Positions 26,811-46,387 of a DNA stretch of 64,000 nt are shown in pieces. The first letter of the stretch is position 1. The number at the start of each line of letters is the position of its first letter. The notes beneath the pieces were generated by a model. That model searched no databases. It was not told the DNA's origin and saw only the letters and a list, made by a program, of their open reading frames with translations. Both the position numbers and the translations under genes were made by a program. Origin of the DNA: Thermaerobacter sp. PB12/4term. GTDB taxonomy: Bacteria; Bacillota; Sulfobacillia; Thermaerobacterales; Thermaerobacteraceae. Location: contig NZ_CP048407.1 of NCBI RefSeq assembly GCF_003403315.2, positions 2,170,001 through 2,234,000 on the forward strand, given 5' to 3'.

Positions 26811-26817
26811 CATACTA
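26811..26817 (+). promoter_or_regulatory. Forespore sigma-G/F-like -10 element of the gerA locus 1
   Basis: CATACTA matches the -10 consensus CATnHTA of sigma G/F. It ends 8 bases before the gerA ATG, and no Shine-Dalgarno sequence is present, so the mRNA may be leaderless. No GHATR -35 was found at the expected distance, which lowers confidence. Confidence 0.3.
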
Positions 26818-26825
26818 CGCCTGCT

Positions 26826-28406
26826 ATGGCCAACCGCAACCTGCTGGATCGGCTCACGCACGAGATCCATACGGCCAGCAGCCGCCTTGGCGCGTACCTG
26901 GACGGCTGGGCCGCCGATCGGGCCGCGGTGGAACCCCTTCCCCACCGGCTCGATGAGGCCACCCGCCGCCTGGCTGCGCTGCTCGGCCATGCCAGCGACC
27001 TGCACATCCGCCACCTGCGGCTGCGGGGCCAGGTCCGGGTGGCCGTGGCGGTGATCGACGGGCTGGCCGTCGACGAACTGATCCATCGCTTCGTGCTGGT
27101 CCCGCTGGGAAGCATCCCGGCCGGTGTGAACACCCCGGACGAGGTGGTGCGGTGGCTCGTCCGCCGCGGGCTCCAAGGAACCCGGCTGCAGCAGGCCCGC
27201 CGCTTCGACGACGTCGTGCGGGAGCTGCACCGCGGCAGTGCCGTGGTGCTGGTGGATTCGGTCGACCGCGCCCTCATCGTCGACTTCAGCGGCTTCGAAC
27301 ACCGCCTGCCTGAGGAACCGGCCACGGAGGTGGTGACCCGCGGGCCGCGCGAGGGGTTCACCGAGGTGCTCCGCACCAACCTGGCCGCCGTCCGGCGCCG
27401 CCTGGCCGATCATCGCCTGCGCGTCGAGGACTTCGAGGTCGGTCGCCTGAGCCACAGCCGGGGTGCCCTCCTCTACGTGCTCGGCCGAGCCGACCCGTTG
27501 CTGGTCGAGACCTTGCGGCGGCGGCTGGCCGCCGTGGACCTCGACACCGTGGTCGACACGAGCCAGCTCGCCTCCTTCCTCTCGGGACGGCCCTGGTCCC
27601 CCTTCATGCAGTACCGCAGCACCGAACGCCCGGACGTGTGCACCGCCGCCCTCGCCGAGGGCCGGGTGGTCCTGATGCTGGACGGCACGCCCTTTGCGCT
27701 GATCGTCCCGGCGACCTTCTGGGACTTCCTGCAGAGCCCGGAAGACTACTACCTGCGCTGGCCCTTCGGCACGGCCATGCGACTGCTGCGCCTGTTCGCC
27801 GTGCTGGTCAGCGTCAGCGGCCTGGCGCTGTACGTGGCCATCGTCAACTACCACCACGAGCTGATCCCGACCAACCTGCTGGTCACGATCCTCACCAGCC
27901 GCGCCGCCGTACCCTATCCCACGGTGGTCGAGGCGATCATCCTGAACGTCGGCTTCGACCTCCTGCGGGAGGCGGGCGCCCGCATGCCCCGCGGCATCGG
28001 CGGTGCGCTCTCCGTGGTGGGCGCCCTGGTGGTGGGGGAGGCCATGGTGCGGGGCGGACTGGCCAGTGCCCCGATGGTGGTGCTGGCCGCGACGACGGCC
28101 GTCGCCACCCTCTCGCTCCCGACCTTTGCCGTGACGGTCCCCTTCAGGCTGATTTCCTACGCGTTGTTGCTCCTGGGCAGCGCCCTGGGGCTGTTCGTCA
28201 TCGCCGTCGGGGTGACCGCCGTGGTCGGGCACCTGAGCTCCCTGGAGTCGGTGGGCAGGCCCTTCCTCGCCCCGCTGGCACCGTGGCGCGGCGAGGCGCT
28301 GCTGGAAGACGCCCTGGTGCGCCTGCCCTGGAGGCGGCACCGCAAGCAGGTCCCCTTCGTCCCCGTGGAGCGGACCGTCGGGCGGGCGGCGGAGCCCGAA
28401 CCATGA
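26826..28406 (+). CDS. Spore germinant receptor subunit A (GerA family), locus 1
   Basis: A 526-residue GerA/GerAA-type protein of the spore inner membrane. It has a cytoplasmic N-terminal domain (about 1-290, including IDGLAVDELIHRFVL, EHRLPEEPATEVVTRGPREGF, LRTNLAAVRRRL) followed by four to six transmembrane helices from about 315 (WDFLQSPEDYYLRWPFG, ALYVAIVNYHHELIPTNLL, GGALSVVGALVVGEA). Family length is usual. The stop overlaps the gerBC start by 4 bp (ATGA). No ribosome site precedes ATG 26826; a sigma-G-like -10 lies immediately upstream. It senses or transmits nutrient germinant signals together with GerB and GerC. Confidence 0.93.
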   Translation: MANRNLLDRLTHEIHTASSRLGAYLDGWAADRAAVEPLPHRLDEATRRLAALLGHASDLHIRHLRLRGQVRVAVAVIDGLAVDELIHRFVLVPLGSIPAGVNTPDEVVRWLVRRGLQGTRLQQARRFDDVVRELHRGSAVVLVDSVDRALIVDFSGFEHRLPEEPATEVVTRGPREGFTEVLRTNLAAVRRRLADHRLRVEDFEVGRLSHSRGALLYVLGRADPLLVETLRRRLAAVDLDTVVDTSQLASFLSGRPWSPFMQYRSTERPDVCTAALAEGRVVLMLDGTPFALIVPATFWDFLQSPEDYYLRWPFGTAMRLLRLFAVLVSVSGLALYVAIVNYHHELIPTNLLVTILTSRAAVPYPTVVEAIILNVGFDLLREAGARMPRGIGGALSVVGALVVGEAMVRGGLASAPMVVLAATTAVATLSLPTFAVTVPFRLISYALLLLGSALGLFVIAVGVTAVVGHLSSLESVGRPFLAPLAPWRGEALLEDALVRLPWRRHRKQVPFVPVERTVGRAAEPEP

Positions 28407-30796
28407 GGTCGCAGCGGGTCGAAGCCCTGCAGGTCGCCATCAGCGCCATCATCGCGGTGACCACGGGGGCGCTGCTGTACCTGCCGCGGCCCGTGGTGGT
28501 GAGGGCGGGACGGGACGGCTGGATGGCGGTGGGCGTGGCGGCGCTGCTCGGGATGGTCCTGGCCTGGTGCTGGTGGGCCCTGTACTTCGGGCCGGAGCGG
28601 GCACCGGGCGAGCGGACGGCCGGGGACCGGCCCGGCTGGGGCGACCGCCTGCTCGCGGCGGGCTTTGCCGGGTATGTCACGTACCTGGCGGTGGTCCTCG
28701 TCGCCCAGGTCACCACCGTGTTCGCCACCGTGCTGCCGGAGATGCCGGTGGCGGTGTTCGCCGCCGGGACGGCGCTGACGGGTTGGGTCCTGGCAGCCTA
28801 CGGCCTGGAGGCGGTCTACCGCAGCGGCCAGGTGCTCTTCCCCCTGATGGTGGGCGCCAGCGTGCTCAACCTTGCCGTCGTGCTGGCGGGGAACGTGGAC
28901 ATGCGCGAGCTGACGCCGGTCCTGGAAACGGGTGTCGGTCCGGTGACGACCGCCCTGCCGGTCGCCTTCGCCTTTTCCGGCGCGTCGGCCGTGGTGCTGG
29001 CGGCCGCCGGCCGGTTGCGGGACCCCGGACGGGTGCGCTGGGCCCTACCCCTGGCCGTGGCCCTGTCGGGCCTGCTGCTGGTCGCCTACACCGCGGCCGC
29101 CGTTGCAGTGCTCGGCGCGTCCGAGGTGGCGCGGTCGACTTTCCCGGTGCTCAGCCTGATCCGTCAGGTCCGTGCCAGCCTGTTCCTCCTGCGCCTCGAG
29201 ATCCTCACGCTGTTCGCCTGGCTGACGGGGGCGTTCGTCCATCTGGGGCTCTTGCTGACCGCGGCCGGCACGGCTGTGGCCCGGGCCCTCCCCGGGAGGC
29301 CGCAATGGCACGGCGTGGTGACGGCCGTGATCGCCGCCGGGGCCGGGTGGGTGGGCGTCGTGGCGTTCGCCAGCGGCCCGGTGCTTCTCCACCACGTGGA
29401 GAGGTTCTTCCCGGCGGTGTCCATCGCGGGGACGGCCTTCCTGCTGGCCGGCGGCTGGCTGAGCCTCCAGGCACGCCGGTCCGGCCGGCCGCGACCCCCG
29501 GCCACCCCCACCGGGTCCCCCCGGATGGGCGGGATGGAGGAGCCACCGCGCGAGGGGCCGGATCCTGCTGAAACGATCCCGTCATCCAAGGCGAGCGGAC
29601 CCGATGCGTCTCCGAACGAGGGTGGATCCGGCTCCCAGGTCCGGAGCGCCGAGCCTGGGTCGCGGCGCGCTGCGGCCCTGGGGATGCTCGCCCTTTCCGC
29701 CGGCCTCTTCCTCGGCGGCTGCTACGGCCGCATCGAGCCCGAGCAGGCCGCCGTGGTGACGGTGCTGGGCATCGACCGAGCCCGCGGCGACCGCCTGCTG
29801 CTCACCGTGGAGATCGTCGGCGCCCCCACCACCGGCCCCAGGGAACAACCGGGCAGCATCGCCCACCGGCTGCTCCAGGCCGAAGGCCGGTCGCTCCTCG
29901 ATGCGCAGCGCCAGCTGGAGCTGCTCGCAGGACGGGAGATCCTGTGGAGCCACGTCAACGTGGTGCTGGTGGGGCGGGACCTGGCGCGATCGGGGCTTGA
30001 GCCCGTCCTTGACACCCTGTCCCGGCGGTACACCTTCCGGCGCAACGCCTTCCTGTTCGTCACCGACGGCCCCGCCGGCCGGTTCCTCCAACGCCTCCAG
30101 CCCGCCTTCGGCGCCCCGCGCTTCGTCGCCTTCCAGCGGATGATGCTTCGTCCCTCCGCCCGTCTGGGCCCGCCCATCGATCTGAACGCCTTCCTGCGCA
30201 CCGTGGGCCACGGGGGTGAGGATCCGGCGGTGCCGGTGGTAGATCTCGCCGCGTCGACGCCGTCCGAACCTATGGTGCGGCGCGTGGCCCTGTTCCGCGG
30301 CCTGCGCATGGTCGCCCTGGCGGACGAACCGGCCACCCGGGGCCTCTACTGGCTGACCGGCCAGCAAGAGGTGGACCGGCTGGTGTGGCCCTGCCCCGGC
30401 GATCCGCCGGATCGCGGGTTCGGGGTCACCGCCGTGCGCAGCAGCAACCGGCGGAGTGTCCGCTGGACGCCCGCCGGGCCGGCGGCCTCCGTGCGGGTGC
30501 GGATCGAGGCGGACGTCGAAGAGTGGCAGTGTCCGGAGCCCCTGACGACGTCCGCGCTGCCGCGGGCCCAGGCCGCGGCGGCACGCGCCGTGGGCCGCGA
30601 CGTGGCGGCGCTGCTGCAGCTGGCCCGCCGGGAGGGGATCGACCCCGTGGGGTTCGGCCTGGAGTTGCATCGCCGCGATCCGGCCGCGTGGAGGGGCGTC
30701 TCCCCGCAGTGGCGCAGGCGGCTCGCGAGCCTGCGCGTCGGGGTCCAGGTAGACGTCCACCTGCGCCGCACCGGCTTGACGATGGGCGCCCCTTGA
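28403..30796 (+). CDS. Spore germinant receptor GerB-GerC fusion protein, locus 1
   Basis: One uninterrupted 797-residue frame. Residues 1-365 are a GerB-type amino-acid-permease-like integral membrane protein of about ten helices (VAISAIIAVTTGALLYLP, PEMPVAVFAAGTALTGWVLA, LRLEILTLFAWLTGAFVHLG). A hydrophilic Pro/Ser/Gly linker (about 366-420) leads to a signal-peptide-like segment with lipobox LFLGGC (Cys440). The rest is a GerC-type domain (AAVVTVLGIDRARGD, FRRNAFLFVTDG, RRVALFRGLRMVAL, LARREGIDPVGFGLELH). GerB and GerC are normally separate, as in the second locus here. Lipoprotein processing at Cys440 could release GerC after export. Confidence 0.9.
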   Translation: MRSQRVEALQVAISAIIAVTTGALLYLPRPVVVRAGRDGWMAVGVAALLGMVLAWCWWALYFGPERAPGERTAGDRPGWGDRLLAAGFAGYVTYLAVVLVAQVTTVFATVLPEMPVAVFAAGTALTGWVLAAYGLEAVYRSGQVLFPLMVGASVLNLAVVLAGNVDMRELTPVLETGVGPVTTALPVAFAFSGASAVVLAAAGRLRDPGRVRWALPLAVALSGLLLVAYTAAAVAVLGASEVARSTFPVLSLIRQVRASLFLLRLEILTLFAWLTGAFVHLGLLLTAAGTAVARALPGRPQWHGVVTAVIAAGAGWVGVVAFASGPVLLHHVERFFPAVSIAGTAFLLAGGWLSLQARRSGRPRPPATPTGSPRMGGMEEPPREGPDPAETIPSSKASGPDASPNEGGSGSQVRSAEPGSRRAAALGMLALSAGLFLGGCYGRIEPEQAAVVTVLGIDRARGDRLLLTVEIVGAPTTGPREQPGSIAHRLLQAEGRSLLDAQRQLELLAGREILWSHVNVVLVGRDLARSGLEPVLDTLSRRYTFRRNAFLFVTDGPAGRFLQRLQPAFGAPRFVAFQRMMLRPSARLGPPIDLNAFLRTVGHGGEDPAVPVVDLAASTPSEPMVRRVALFRGLRMVALADEPATRGLYWLTGQQEVDRLVWPCPGDPPDRGFGVTAVRSSNRRSVRWTPAGPAASVRVRIEADVEEWQCPEPLTTSALPRAQAAAARAVGRDVAALLQLARREGIDPVGFGLELHRRDPAAWRGVSPQWRRRLASLRVGVQVDVHLRRTGLTMGAP

Positions 30797-30933
30797 GGCC
30801 GGGGACCCGGCCCCGGACCGCGCGGGCAGGAATCCACTGCCAGGGAACGTATATGGCGAACGTGGCCGGCGACGGGGCGGCAGGTTCTGCTGTCGCCAGC
30901 ACAGTCCGCGCAGGAGAACGGGGGACCCGAGCC

Positions 30934-41661: not shown

Positions 41662-42972
41662 TCAGGGTGCCGACACCGTGAGGTCGTAACTCCGCAGGTG
41701 GAACTTCACCCGCACGGCGGGCCTCAACTGGCGCAGCTCGCGGCGCCACCCGGCCTGCAGGGCGCGCCACGCTGCGGGATCCTGCCGGTACAGGGCCGTC
41801 CCAAAGCCGGCGGGATCGGCGCCCAGGGCGGCGGCCTGCTCCAGGGCCGCCCGAATCTGCCGTTGCGCCTGCCGGGCCACCGCCCGCCGAACCGCCATGG
41901 CCCGGGTCCGGTCGACGCGGCCGCCGGGGCATTGCCACTCCAGCAGGGTTCCCTCCAGCTTGACCTCGACGGCCACCCGGGGCGGCGGGCCTGTTTCCAC
42001 CACCTGGATGCGGGCTTCATTGCGGTCGATCCGCAAGGACACCACCGGCTGCACCGGCACATCCTGCGCTTCCCCGCCCGCGCCGCCCTGCGTCTCGCCG
42101 CCCGCGCTACCGCTGGCACTGCCTTGACCATCCGTTGCCTGACCGCTCGTCTCCGGGCCGGCCGTTCCTTGAGAACCCCCACCCTCACCGGCGGCCTCAG
42201 GACAGGGAACGGCCAGGGTAAAGGGGTGGGCCTCACCCCGGGCCATGAGCAGCCCCTCGTCGAGGGGCGGGGGGAGAAAGCCCACCAGCCGGTCCCGGGC
42301 GAACAGGGCCAGGCCCGCCGGCACCGGGTTGATGGTATCCCGGGTGCGGCCGGTGGCCACCACCGGCAGGAAGGGGTCGATGCCCGGCGTATCAAGCCAG
42401 CGCAGCACGGTGTTGCCGTCCACCACCCGGATGGTTCCTGGCCTGTTCTTCCGGCCCAGGGCATCGAAGGAACGGGCCAGGGAGCGATCCAGGGCGGGTT
42501 GCAACAACTCCAGCAAGCTGCCCGCCTCGCCCCGCACCACGTAAAGGGACGCCTTGCGCTCCACCCGGTAACTGCGGGAGATCATCTCCAGCAGGGGCCG
42601 TAGGCCCGACCGGGCGGCCGGCTCCCCGATGAGGATGTGGTCGGTAAAGGACCAGCGGACCTCCCGCGGCACGCTGCGGTCCAGGGACTCGGCGGCCATG
42701 CGCGGGGTCTGGCCGGGCGCCGACCGGAACAGCGTGTTGCGACTCATGCCCGGCCCTCCTGCGCCGCCCCCTCCCACCGACGCCGGCAGGACCAGCTCGG
42801 GCACGGGGATCGCCACCGTCCAGAGGTAGCGTCCTGCAGGGTTCCGGTCCAGGGCGGCCACCGTAATGAAGGCCAGGTCGTTGACCTCGTTGTAGCCCCA
42901 GCATCCACCCAGCGTCAGGGCACTCAGAATCAGGACGAACCCGGCCCGCCAGCGGCCCCCGCGGCTCATCAT
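41662..42972 (-). CDS. Spore germinant receptor subunit C (GerC family lipoprotein), locus 2
   Basis: 436 residues. Lipoprotein signal with lipobox LTLGGC (Cys24), then the GerC fold (AFITVAALDRNPAG, RWSFTDHILIGEPAARSG, RKASLYVVRGEAGSLLELLQP, GLALFARDRLVGFLPP). The C-terminal domain includes AALEQAAALGADPAGFGTALY, as in the fused GerC of locus 1. A 50-residue Gly/Ser/Gln-rich insert (about 258-305) is unusual. ATG 42972 overlaps the gerB stop (TGATG). It is exposed on the outer face of the spore inner membrane with GerA and GerB. Confidence 0.92.
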   Translation of the reverse strand: MMSRGGRWRAGFVLILSALTLGGCWGYNEVNDLAFITVAALDRNPAGRYLWTVAIPVPELVLPASVGGGGAGGPGMSRNTLFRSAPGQTPRMAAESLDRSVPREVRWSFTDHILIGEPAARSGLRPLLEMISRSYRVERKASLYVVRGEAGSLLELLQPALDRSLARSFDALGRKNRPGTIRVVDGNTVLRWLDTPGIDPFLPVVATGRTRDTINPVPAGLALFARDRLVGFLPPPLDEGLLMARGEAHPFTLAVPCPEAAGEGGGSQGTAGPETSGQATDGQGSASGSAGGETQGGAGGEAQDVPVQPVVSLRIDRNEARIQVVETGPPPRVAVEVKLEGTLLEWQCPGGRVDRTRAMAVRRAVARQAQRQIRAALEQAAALGADPAGFGTALYRQDPAAWRALQAGWRRELRQLRPAVRVKFHLRSYDLTVSAP

Positions 42973-44237
42973 CACGGCATCCGCCCCCCGGCAGGCTCCC
43001 TGCCGGCGGCGGCGGCGCGTCCGGCTTCGGGAGCCTCGTCGCCCTGGGGTGCCGGGCCGGAACCCGGACGGTGCCGCCCGGCGGGCATACCCTCCGGTGC
43101 CTGTCCCAGGGATCGTTCCTCCGCCCTTCCCGCCGCCCGTCCCGCCCGGGCGGGCAGCAGGCCGGCCACCAGCCCCGCCACCAGCCCGGCCATCCCCACC
43201 AGGGGCCAGACCCGGGTAAATTGCCAGTCCCAGCGCTCGCTGTCGGGAAAGAGGATGGCCGCCACGGCGACCGCTGCCAGGGTCATCAGCCCGTGGACCG
43301 GTCCCTGCCACCGCTCGGTGAGCCCCAGGCCCGCTCGTGCCGTCACCCCCGCCGCGTAGACGAAGAGGGCCAGCTTCAGGGCGATGCCCAGCAGCCATGC
43401 TGAAATCGTGAACACCTCCGGACGGGACATCACGGGCACGGGCCGGGCCAGCCGAGCCAGAATGAAGGTGGGGGCCACCGCCCGGGCCGTTTCCCCCGGC
43501 CCCAGCACGACGATGCCGGCCAGCGCCACACCGGCCAGCAGCACCACCATGCCCGCCGCGGCAAGCATCAGAGGCCGCAGAACACCATGGCGGGAGGACA
43601 GCCCGTCGGCAAAATAGGTCAGGATCAGGGTCTCGGCCGTGGCCGCCACCATCACCGGCAACCCTCCCAGCAACGGGCGCGCTCCCCCTTCCAGCAGCGG
43701 CAAGAGCTGGGCCCACTCCGCATTGCCCGGAAGGAGAATGAGCAGGTTCGTCGCCAGGGCCAGCACCATCACCGGCAGAACCAGCAGCCCCAGCCGGGCC
43801 AGGGTTTCTCGCCCGTACGCCACCAGGACCCACGTGGTCAGGGCCATGGTGGCATGAAAAGCCCACACCGGCGTCTCCGGGAAGACCACCACCGTGAGCA
43901 GCACCGTTTCGCCCAGAATGCCGCCGGCATGGTAGGTCGCATACGCCACCAGCACAGGGAGGACCAGCCACCGCATGAGCGGGTGAAACCGCAGGCGGTC
44001 AAGGGGCGTAAGCCCCGGGCGGAAGTAGAAGGCGTACCACGCCCCGACCACCAGGGCCACCACGGGGGTGCTGGCCAGCACGGCGAGCCAGGCGTCGCGG
44101 CCGGCGACGGCCGCCAGCGACCGCGGCAGGAAGAAGACCAGGGTGGCCAGCACCACCACGATCAGCAGGACCGCGATGGAGGCGGGATCAACCTGGTCAC
44201 GGCGCGGCACGGCCGGTTCCTCCCCGCCGCCCCGCAT
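42972..44237 (-). CDS. Spore germinant receptor subunit B (GerB family), locus 2
   Basis: 421 residues, about ten transmembrane helices of the APC-like GerB family (IAVLLIVVVLATLVFFLPR, FPETPVWAFHATMALTTWVLV, EVFTISAWLLGIALKLALFVY). The C-terminal 75 residues are a hydrophilic Ala/Gly/Pro-rich tail after GLLPARAG. The start is ATG 44237, with a GGCAGGTGCAGGG site. It is separated from gerA by 237 bp, unlike the overlapping genes of locus 1. It probably forms the germinant-binding pocket. Confidence 0.92.
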   Translation of the reverse strand: MRGGGEEPAVPRRDQVDPASIAVLLIVVVLATLVFFLPRSLAAVAGRDAWLAVLASTPVVALVVGAWYAFYFRPGLTPLDRLRFHPLMRWLVLPVLVAYATYHAGGILGETVLLTVVVFPETPVWAFHATMALTTWVLVAYGRETLARLGLLVLPVMVLALATNLLILLPGNAEWAQLLPLLEGGARPLLGGLPVMVAATAETLILTYFADGLSSRHGVLRPLMLAAAGMVVLLAGVALAGIVVLGPGETARAVAPTFILARLARPVPVMSRPEVFTISAWLLGIALKLALFVYAAGVTARAGLGLTERWQGPVHGLMTLAAVAVAAILFPDSERWDWQFTRVWPLVGMAGLVAGLVAGLLPARAGRAAGRAEERSLGQAPEGMPAGRHRPGSGPAPQGDEAPEAGRAAAAGREPAGGRMP

Positions 44238-44474
44238 ACCCTGCACCTGCCCGAGGCCCGTCCTGGCCTTGCCTTCCCTGTGGCTCCGCACGGCTCCCTG
44301 GTGCCCACGGCCGGGCACGGTCTGGCCGTCCCCGCCCCTCTACATGGGCACCCCGTTCCCCTGGCCCGGCGAAACCTGGCCATTCCTTGCGCCGTGCCCG
44401 GCCTGTTCCTCCCCGCCGCCTGCCGCGGGCTCCTGCATCCCTTTGCGCGCCGTCCAAGCCTCGCCCCCGCCTCC

Positions 44475-46355
44475 TCACTGACCTGCGCCGGCGCCCGTGC
44501 CCTCGCGCCCGATCAGGGGCGGCTTGCCCCGCATCATCGCCCAGGGAGCGCGGACCAGGGCATCCTCCCAGCCCTGGGGACGATACGGAGCGTATGGCGT
44601 GAGGTAGGGCACTCCCACTGAACGCAGGGACACCATATGGGCCAGCACGATGAGGAAGGCCGTGACCAGCCCGTACATGCCCAGCACGGTCGCCACCCCC
44701 AGGAACACGTAGTGCAGAACGCGGAAGGGAATAGCCGCGCCGAAGGTGGGCAGGGCGAAGGCGGCCATGGCGCTGACCCCGATGAGGATCAGGGTCGGAG
44801 CGGTGACGATGCCCGCCCGCACCGCCGTATCCCCGATGACCAGGCCGCCGACGATGGTCAGGGCTCCGCCGACCTGGCGGGGGAGACGGGTCGTCGCCTC
44901 GCGCAGGATGTCAAAGACGAAGCTCAGCCCGGCGGCCTCCAGGGCCGTGGGTAAGGGCAGGGCTTCGCGGGACGCCGCCAGGGAAAAGAGGAACTCCCGG
45001 GGGATCAGCTCCTGGTTGTAGGTCGTCACGGCCACGTAGAGCGGGAGCCCCACGGTCATCAGCAGGACGGCGAAGAACCGGACCATGCGCAGGATGCCGG
45101 CGAAAGGCCAGCGCAGGTAGTAGTCGTCGGGCGACTGGAGCAGGTCCCAGAACTGCAGGGGCACCACCACGGCGAAGGGTGTGCCGTCCAGCAGGACCGC
45201 GACCCGCCCCTCCATCAGCCCCGCCGCCACCACGTCGGGCCGCTCCGTCAACCGCGCCTGGGGGAAGAGGGAGAGGGGGCGGTCCTGCAGCAGCGCCTCG
45301 ACCTGTTCTTCCGAGAACAGCATGTCCCAGGGCGCCGCCTCCAGGCGCCGCCGCACCTGAGCCACGGTGCCGGGATCGGCCCGCCCCGCCACGTAGACCA
45401 CGGCCGCCCGGGTGCGGCTCAGGCGGCCCGTCTCCAGCTCTTCGATGCGCAGGTAGGGTGTGCGCAGCCGCCGGCGCAGGGCCGCGGTGTTCACCCGCAG
45501 GACCTCGACAAAGGACTCCCGCGGGCCGCCGATGGTCCCTTCCGTGGCCGGGTCGTCCACACCGCGGTGCTCGAACTCCCGGACGTCCACGAGCCACGCG
45601 GTGCCCGCCCCGCCTGCCCGCTGTCCGTCCGGGGTGGCCCCGCGGCCCGCGCGGAACGCCCCCTGTCCCGCGGCACCGGCCGCTGGTGCGCCCCCGGAAT
45701 CCGCAACGGCTGGGGGTCCACCCGCAGCGTCGACGGCAATCAGGGCACACCCTTCCAGAAGCCCGTCGACCGCCTGCGCCAGGCGGGTCACGGGACGAAC
45801 CCGGCCGCCGGGCAACAGGCCGCGGTCCAGCCACCGGGCCACCTGGGGCGCGGTGGCCGGCAGGCGTTCCAGCAGCGGCCGGAGGATGAACTGGTTGAGG
45901 AGGGTGTCCCCCACCAGGCCGTCCACGTACATGACCAGCAGCTCCGCGCCCCCCGGGCGCCGGAGGGGTACGGCCACCAGGTCGGCGGCGTGGCCCAGGG
46001 CATCCCGCACCAGCGACTCCAGGGACCGTACCTCCGCCGGCACAGGTTCTTCCAGCGCCAGATCGGCGACCCAGCGGTCCATCCGGCCCAGGAAGTCTTC
46101 CAGGTGCTCGCGCAACCGGGTGGCGGGGGTTTCCGCCAGGGGCGGCCGGCCCCCCAGAGGCGTGGTCGACCAGGCCGGCAGCCGGGCGTGGAGGCGATCC
46201 AGCCGCCCGGCGGCGCCTTCAAGCCCGGCCTCAGGGTGGACGGGCTGCCGGGCGGGCGCCCCGGCCGGCGGCTGCACGCCGGCCCGTGTTTGCCCCCCCG
46301 CGGGCCGGGCACCGCCCCCCAGCCCTCGCCCCACCCACCGCACTCTGCGGCTCAC
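44475..46355 (-). CDS. Spore germinant receptor subunit A (GerA family), locus 2
   Basis: 626 residues. It has an unusually long Gly/Pro/Arg-rich N-terminus (about 1-85), then the GerA cytoplasmic domain (VMYVDGLVGDTLLNQFIL, EGTIGGPRESFVEVLRVN, LRIEELETGRLSRTRAAVVY) with an Ala/Gly-rich insert, and four to six C-terminal helices (WDLLQSPDDYYLRWPFAG, YNQELIPREFLFSLAASREA, GGALTIVGGLVIGDTAV). GTG 46355 is chosen because GGGAGGAGGTGGG lies just upstream. The core is clearly homologous to GerA of locus 1. A possible sigma-G promoter lies at 46388-46417. Confidence 0.92.
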   Translation of the reverse strand: MSRRVRWVGRGLGGGARPAGGQTRAGVQPPAGAPARQPVHPEAGLEGAAGRLDRLHARLPAWSTTPLGGRPPLAETPATRLREHLEDFLGRMDRWVADLALEEPVPAEVRSLESLVRDALGHAADLVAVPLRRPGGAELLVMYVDGLVGDTLLNQFILRPLLERLPATAPQVARWLDRGLLPGGRVRPVTRLAQAVDGLLEGCALIAVDAAGGPPAVADSGGAPAAGAAGQGAFRAGRGATPDGQRAGGAGTAWLVDVREFEHRGVDDPATEGTIGGPRESFVEVLRVNTAALRRRLRTPYLRIEELETGRLSRTRAAVVYVAGRADPGTVAQVRRRLEAAPWDMLFSEEQVEALLQDRPLSLFPQARLTERPDVVAAGLMEGRVAVLLDGTPFAVVVPLQFWDLLQSPDDYYLRWPFAGILRMVRFFAVLLMTVGLPLYVAVTTYNQELIPREFLFSLAASREALPLPTALEAAGLSFVFDILREATTRLPRQVGGALTIVGGLVIGDTAVRAGIVTAPTLILIGVSAMAAFALPTFGAAIPFRVLHYVFLGVATVLGMYGLVTAFLIVLAHMVSLRSVGVPYLTPYAPYRPQGWEDALVRAPWAMMRGKPPLIGREGTGAGAGQ

Positions 46356-46387
46356 GCGCCCACCTCCTCCCGCCCTTCTCACCTGGA

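Follow-up and report, generated by a model that had tools for sequence, protein, structure and literature searches.

A putative germinant receptor operon of Thermaerobacter in which gerB and gerC share one open reading frame

Introduction

The closest described relatives of the locus studied here are the Ger(x) germinant receptors, such as GerA, GerB and GerK of B. subtilis, whose genes are separate and often overlapping and whose C subunit is expected to be lipid-modified and to lie at the inner spore membrane, on its outer face. Little is understood of how the C and B subunits work together. In 2021 the function of GerAC, a lipoprotein, was described as unknown, and the A and C subunits of B. 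subtilis rely on GerAB for their stability (PMC8617281). Current models place the C subunits on the outer face (PMC13170314), and B and C are taken to be present in a 1:1 ratio in ordinary receptors on the basis of AlphaFold protomer models (cited in PMC13170314).

Here we describe a locus in the closed genome (2.82 Mb) of Thermaerobacter sp. PB12/4term, contained in an analysed stretch of 64,000 nucleotides (the window). It resembles the Ger(x) receptors in that an A subunit adjoins B and C subunits of the same families and folds, but it differs from them in that B and C are encoded in one frame with an internal signal peptide. A further parallel is fbcH of Bradyrhizobium japonicum, which encodes a cytochrome b/c1 polyprotein that is cut at an internal signal peptide. 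There, too, the internal signal peptide lies between a polytopic membrane subunit and an exported protein that belongs to its complex, but the processing enzyme is signal peptidase I and the products are heme proteins that are not lipidated; we use the parallel as a lead only. A literature search returned no published fusion of GerB and GerC, which is a weak absence given that most subscription journals and the domain-architecture databases were outside its scope.

Results

Organization of the gerA-gerBC operon

The first gene of the operon, gerA (26826–28406, + strand), encodes a receptor A subunit of 526 residues (PF03323, E-value 1.5e-149) and overlaps the next gene in the sequence ATGA. 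This next gene, gerBC, is a single open frame (28403–30796, +) that runs from an ATG to a TGA over 797 codons (797 residues) without internal stops, as had been noted in the initial annotation. All Pfam matches in the frame were above their cut-offs: Spore_permease (PF03845) at residues 13–295, Spore_GerAC_N (PF25198) at 443–614 and Spore_GerAC (PF05504) at 628–791. The GerB half scored 102.4 bits against PF03845 (cut-off 23.4); it also matched the narrower NCBIfam model TIGR00912, here below the cut-off (88.3 vs 139.55). The GerC half was above the cut-off of TIGR02887 and aligned to a solved relative (3n54) with an E-value of 4.4e-58.

The GerB part (residues 1–357; 28403–29473, +) has ten transmembrane helices and an APC fold, as indicated by PF03845, the hydropathy profile and the match of the structural model to ApcT. 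It is followed by a hydrophilic linker (residues 358–420; 29474–29662, +), predicted to be disordered and, from the topology, cytoplasmic. A linker had been pointed out before with a length of 55 residues; within the limits used here, from TM10 to the signal peptide, it measures 63. Next comes an internal lipoprotein signal peptide, which is at the same time the eleventh transmembrane helix (residues 421–439, RRAAALGMLALSAGLFLGG; 29663–29719, +), delimited by its conservation in three species and by a helix in the model. Cys440 (29720–29722, +), numbered correctly in the earlier description of the LFLGGC motif, is the predicted lipidation site and a possible cleavage site; it is invariant in the orthologues, and in tblastn alignments the homology to separate GerC lipoproteins starts precisely at this residue. 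The remainder of the chain (residues 440–797; 29720–30793, +) forms the GerC ectodomain, assigned from PF25198, PF05504 and TIGR02887 and from the fold of B. subtilis GerBC (3n54). At the level of sequence features, the LGGC lipobox with Cys440 is that of a lipoprotein C subunit. The signal peptide (SRRAAALGMLALSAGLFLGGC) has n, h and c regions, and is located behind ten transmembrane helices, predicted to form an N-in/C-in membrane domain, and a linker of net positive charge.

Upstream of gerA, the sequence CATACTA (26811–26817, +) is found 8 bases ahead of the start codon, and its position is identical in the three species that carry the operon. It may represent a -10-like element of the sigma-G type, here without an established -35. 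The gerA start has no Shine-Dalgarno (SD) sequence, and the mRNA of the operon may have hardly any leader.

On the evidence of sequence, domains and predicted fold, the gerA-gerBC operon very probably encodes a nutrient germinant receptor of the Ger type with B and C as one chain. Separate B and C polypeptides, as in other Ger(x) operons, are not encoded at the gene level, since one open frame is present in three species. Separation of the two is usual in the family but does not define its function, and we therefore count the fused receptor as a variant.

Structure and topology of the fused protein

The hydropathy profile showed ten helices, a net positive linker and an eleventh helix that coincides with the signal peptide. 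An AlphaFold model of the fused protein, based on an alignment of 53 sequences only, had a pLDDT of 87 and a pTM of 0.85; folding of the single sequence, without alignment, gave a pLDDT of 41. In the AlphaFold model the pLDDT was below 50 in the linker (residues 389–416) and around the lipobox cysteine (residues 439–443), and the helix at 418–438 stands apart. The GerB part matched ApcT (Z 30.8, rmsd 3.5 over 336 residues), and the GerC part matched the crystal structure of B. subtilis GerBC (3n54). The even number of helices and the similarity to ApcT suggest that the C-terminus of GerB is inside.

Conservation of the fusion in Thermaerobacter

The genome of the window (G000) was compared with those of three other species of the genus, namely G001, G003 and T. 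marianensis. Two of the three have the fusion as well, with orthologues of 780 residues (G001, 86% identity) and 819 residues (G003, 89–91% identity). In T. marianensis the whole gerA-gerBC operon is absent from the syntenic place, and homology to the window picks up at 30931, downstream of gerBC. The linker, counted from the end of GerB to the motif RRAAAL, is 46, 63 (window) and 85 residues long in the three species with the fusion; all insertions and deletions are in frame and no stops are present. The initial annotation had proposed to compare the gerB/gerC junctions of related genomes, and had named a stop or frameshift in the linker, or orthologues with separate genes and a conserved gerC start, as results that would speak against a fusion. 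The former was absent from the genomes of all three species, and no orthologues of the latter kind were found.

The stretch RRAAAL-xMLAL-xAGLFLGGC is close to invariant in the three species. Over the 20 codons of the signal-peptide region, G001 differed from G000 by five synonymous and no nonsynonymous changes, and the comparison with G003 showed two nonsynonymous ones. Codon comparison across the species further showed that changes in the linker are mostly nonsynonymous, that those in RRAAAL are synonymous only, and that third-position changes predominate in the GerC half, which indicates purifying selection. At the GC content of the linker (about 75%), the chance that the linker alone stays open was 0.30–0.56 per species. 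An open linker in one genome thus carries little weight and was not used as proof; the weight for a real fusion comes from the conservation in three species, the in-frame insertions and deletions and the synonymous-only changes in RRAAAL.

We also looked for a separate start of gerC within the frame. No credible conserved start was found among the ATG, GTG and TTG codons of the linkers of the three species. Met428, the one start codon that they all share, lies 12 residues ahead of the cysteine and would leave the signal peptide without a charged n-region. Pairing of the linker codons with the anti-SD sequence was estimated at −1.7 to −6.2 kcal/mol (−3.2 to −6.2 kcal/mol for those other than Met428), compared with −9.5 to −12.1 kcal/mol for gerC where it is a gene of its own, in the sister operons. 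RRAAAL is located upstream of Met428, and its synonymous changes indicate that this stretch is translated from farther upstream.

The sister operon and the origin of the fusion

The window contains a second ger operon (41662–46382, − strand) with the same gene order: gerA (44475–46382, start uncertain), gerB (42972–44318) and gerC (41662–42972). In trees of GerB and GerC, its products are the nearest relatives in the genome of the fused protein, and the fused proteins of Thermaerobacter branch next to the unfused sister-operon proteins of their own genus. This operon is not fused, in agreement with the initial annotation: the TGA of gerB (42974–42972) overlaps the ATG of gerC (42972), which is read in a different frame and has its own SD sequence and a charged signal peptide. 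Some 11 kb separate the two operons, which are on opposite strands, and this layout is the same in G001 and G003; T. marianensis has the second operon only. The second operon's GerC has about 45 residues that the fused GerC does not have, inserted at 42060–42190 (−) and rich in Gly, Ala, Thr and Ser; the GerA of this operon contains a similar low-complexity stretch near 45600–45720.

Ahead of its stop, the sister operon's GerB has a hydrophilic C-terminal tail of 35–71 residues, and the linker of the fusion agrees with this tail in composition and in its range of lengths. From this resemblance, the simplest history is one in which the stop of gerB and the start of gerC were lost and the signal peptide was kept. 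On these sequence comparisons the fusion probably arose by the two losses together, and the linker looks like an ordinary C-terminal tail of GerB rather than a special acquisition.

Elsewhere in the genome, at 1695–1698 kb (L016, 2700–2830, −), a gerB and a gerC share a frame with one TAG between them, and the only starts available to this gerC ahead of its signal peptide are GTG codons. A distantly related genome (G057) likewise has gerB and gerC in one frame, with a stop between them that was read directly. Both pairs have long open frames, but they were rejected as fusions because of the in-frame stop in each; they are steps close to fusion.

Fusions outside the genus

Searches of two samples of the phylum (about 60 and 109 genomes) yielded further GerB-GerC fusions in the genus Carboxydocella only. 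C. thermautotrophica 41 (CP028514.1) has two fused loci, encoding 723 and 740 residues, each with an open frame of gerA size upstream. A contig scan with the window protein as query gave no match, and the same scan with the Carboxydocella protein led to C. thermautotrophica; a search of plasmid proteins returned separate GerC proteins and no fusion. As in Thermaerobacter, B and C are in one frame, and the signal peptide and the cysteine are retained. The Carboxydocella fusions differ in their separate origins, in a signal peptide that follows TM10 with hardly any linker, and in an atypical lipobox. At locus A TM10 runs nearly straight into RKLLFPLLIFLLLLNSGC. In the Carboxydocella fusions the residues up to the cysteine are LNSGC and INQGC, with position -3 departing from the usual lipobox. 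Some separate GerC proteins of Carboxydocella and its relatives are likewise atypical here. In a second Carboxydocella genome (G010), the first locus is present as a fusion. Its locus B is truncated (L068, 433–1296, −), and what is left of the fused gene encodes just the C-terminal 284 residues, which are 99% identical.

The GerB tree forced three changes of state between separate and fused, and none of the bootstrap trees had a single change. Three independent origins of the fusion are thus most likely as judged from the tree, in which long branches make the precise position of Carboxydocella locus B less certain. Overall, GerB-GerC fusions are rare but recurrent.

Discussion

Several explanations would make the fused frame less meaningful than it appears. 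The high GC content of the linker favours both errors and chance open frames, as an artefact of sequencing or assembly that removed a stop or a frame change would need; however, the same fusion occurs in three species' genomes with differing linker lengths, each in frame, which reduces the probability of such an artefact to a negligible level. As judged by this comparison of genomes, the fusion is no sequencing error. It is also very improbable that the operon is a decaying, non-functional receptor from which the stop was lost by drift. T. marianensis, without the operon at the syntenic place, shows that it is dispensable, and the second Carboxydocella genome has only a truncated copy of one fused gene, but the purifying selection on the GerC half and the signal peptide, the intact and conserved gerA and the conserved CATACTA upstream all argue for a functional operon. 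More room, though still little, is left for the idea that gerC also or mainly begins at a codon of its own within the frame, the fusion being a by-product that came about when gerB lost its stop. At least one ATG, GTG or TTG is present in every species' linker, G003 has a CTG with a strong SD-like site, and an internal start could lie at such non-conserved codons or at a CTG. Against this, the three species share no start that is credible and SD pairing is weak, RRAAAL ahead of Met428 is kept with synonymous changes and hence translated, and at Carboxydocella locus A no ATG, GTG or TTG is present in the 23 codons preceding the cysteine. Moreover, every ribosome that starts at gerB would yield the fusion regardless, as no stop intervenes.

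We thus consider gerBC to be translated as one chain, for which the initial annotation had offered two fates, a processed polyprotein or a permanently tethered receptor. GerB would insert with its ten helices and both ends inside, the linker would remain in the cytoplasm or spore core, and the former signal peptide of GerC would cross outward as the eleventh helix. GerC would then sit on the outer face, like a separately made GerC, and Cys440 would be lipidated by Lgt. Signal peptidase II probably cuts the chain at Cys440, which would give a normal GerC lipoprotein and a GerB with a hydrophobic tail; we lean towards this step with some reserve, from the strict conservation of LGGC in Thermaerobacter, which speaks for processing. 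The atypical lipoboxes of Carboxydocella call for caution, and those fusions may stay uncut. That the chain, lipidated or not, is never cut, so that GerB and GerC form one polypeptide with eleven transmembrane helices in the mature spore membrane, is a less probable outcome that deserves to be taken seriously. It is in line with the frame without a stop, with the length and flexibility of the Thermaerobacter linker, and with the nearly linkerless Carboxydocella fusions whose lipoboxes are atypical at -3. Heteromeric amino acid transporters, in which an APC transporter is covalently joined to an ectodomain partner, have been likened to GerAB/GerAC (PMC8617281). On the other hand, a canonical, invariant LGGC with a full n/h region, as in Thermaerobacter, is more than a plain membrane anchor needs, and the cysteine was kept in all three fusion events. 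A mature receptor with B and C covalently joined in a single-chain, lipid-anchored sensor-ectodomain unit, evolved at least three times, is put forward tentatively.

With cleavage at Cys440 as the preferred outcome, the fusion would mainly tie B and C together in their synthesis, in their insertion into the membrane and in their supply at 1:1. Equimolar synthesis follows directly from the single frame, and to this extent the proposed fixing of a 1:1 stoichiometry holds; as ordinary receptors are already thought to be 1:1 (PMC13170314), the fusion reflects this stoichiometry and creates no new one. In B. subtilis the stability of A and C depends on GerAB, so tying the synthesis of GerC to that of GerB would cost little. 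The earlier interpretation as a whole is partly supported.

For the receptor family, a fusion that most likely had three or more origins and is still present in at least three species provides independent evidence that B and C act jointly, in a 1:1 ratio and in the same patch of membrane, in agreement with the AlphaFold protomer models that propose 1:1 B/C. For structural work, the gerBC gene already provides a single-chain construct, and it is also a test case for the action of signal peptidase II on an internal lipobox behind a polytopic protein. If B and C are permanently joined, it would be natural proof that they form one 1:1 module.
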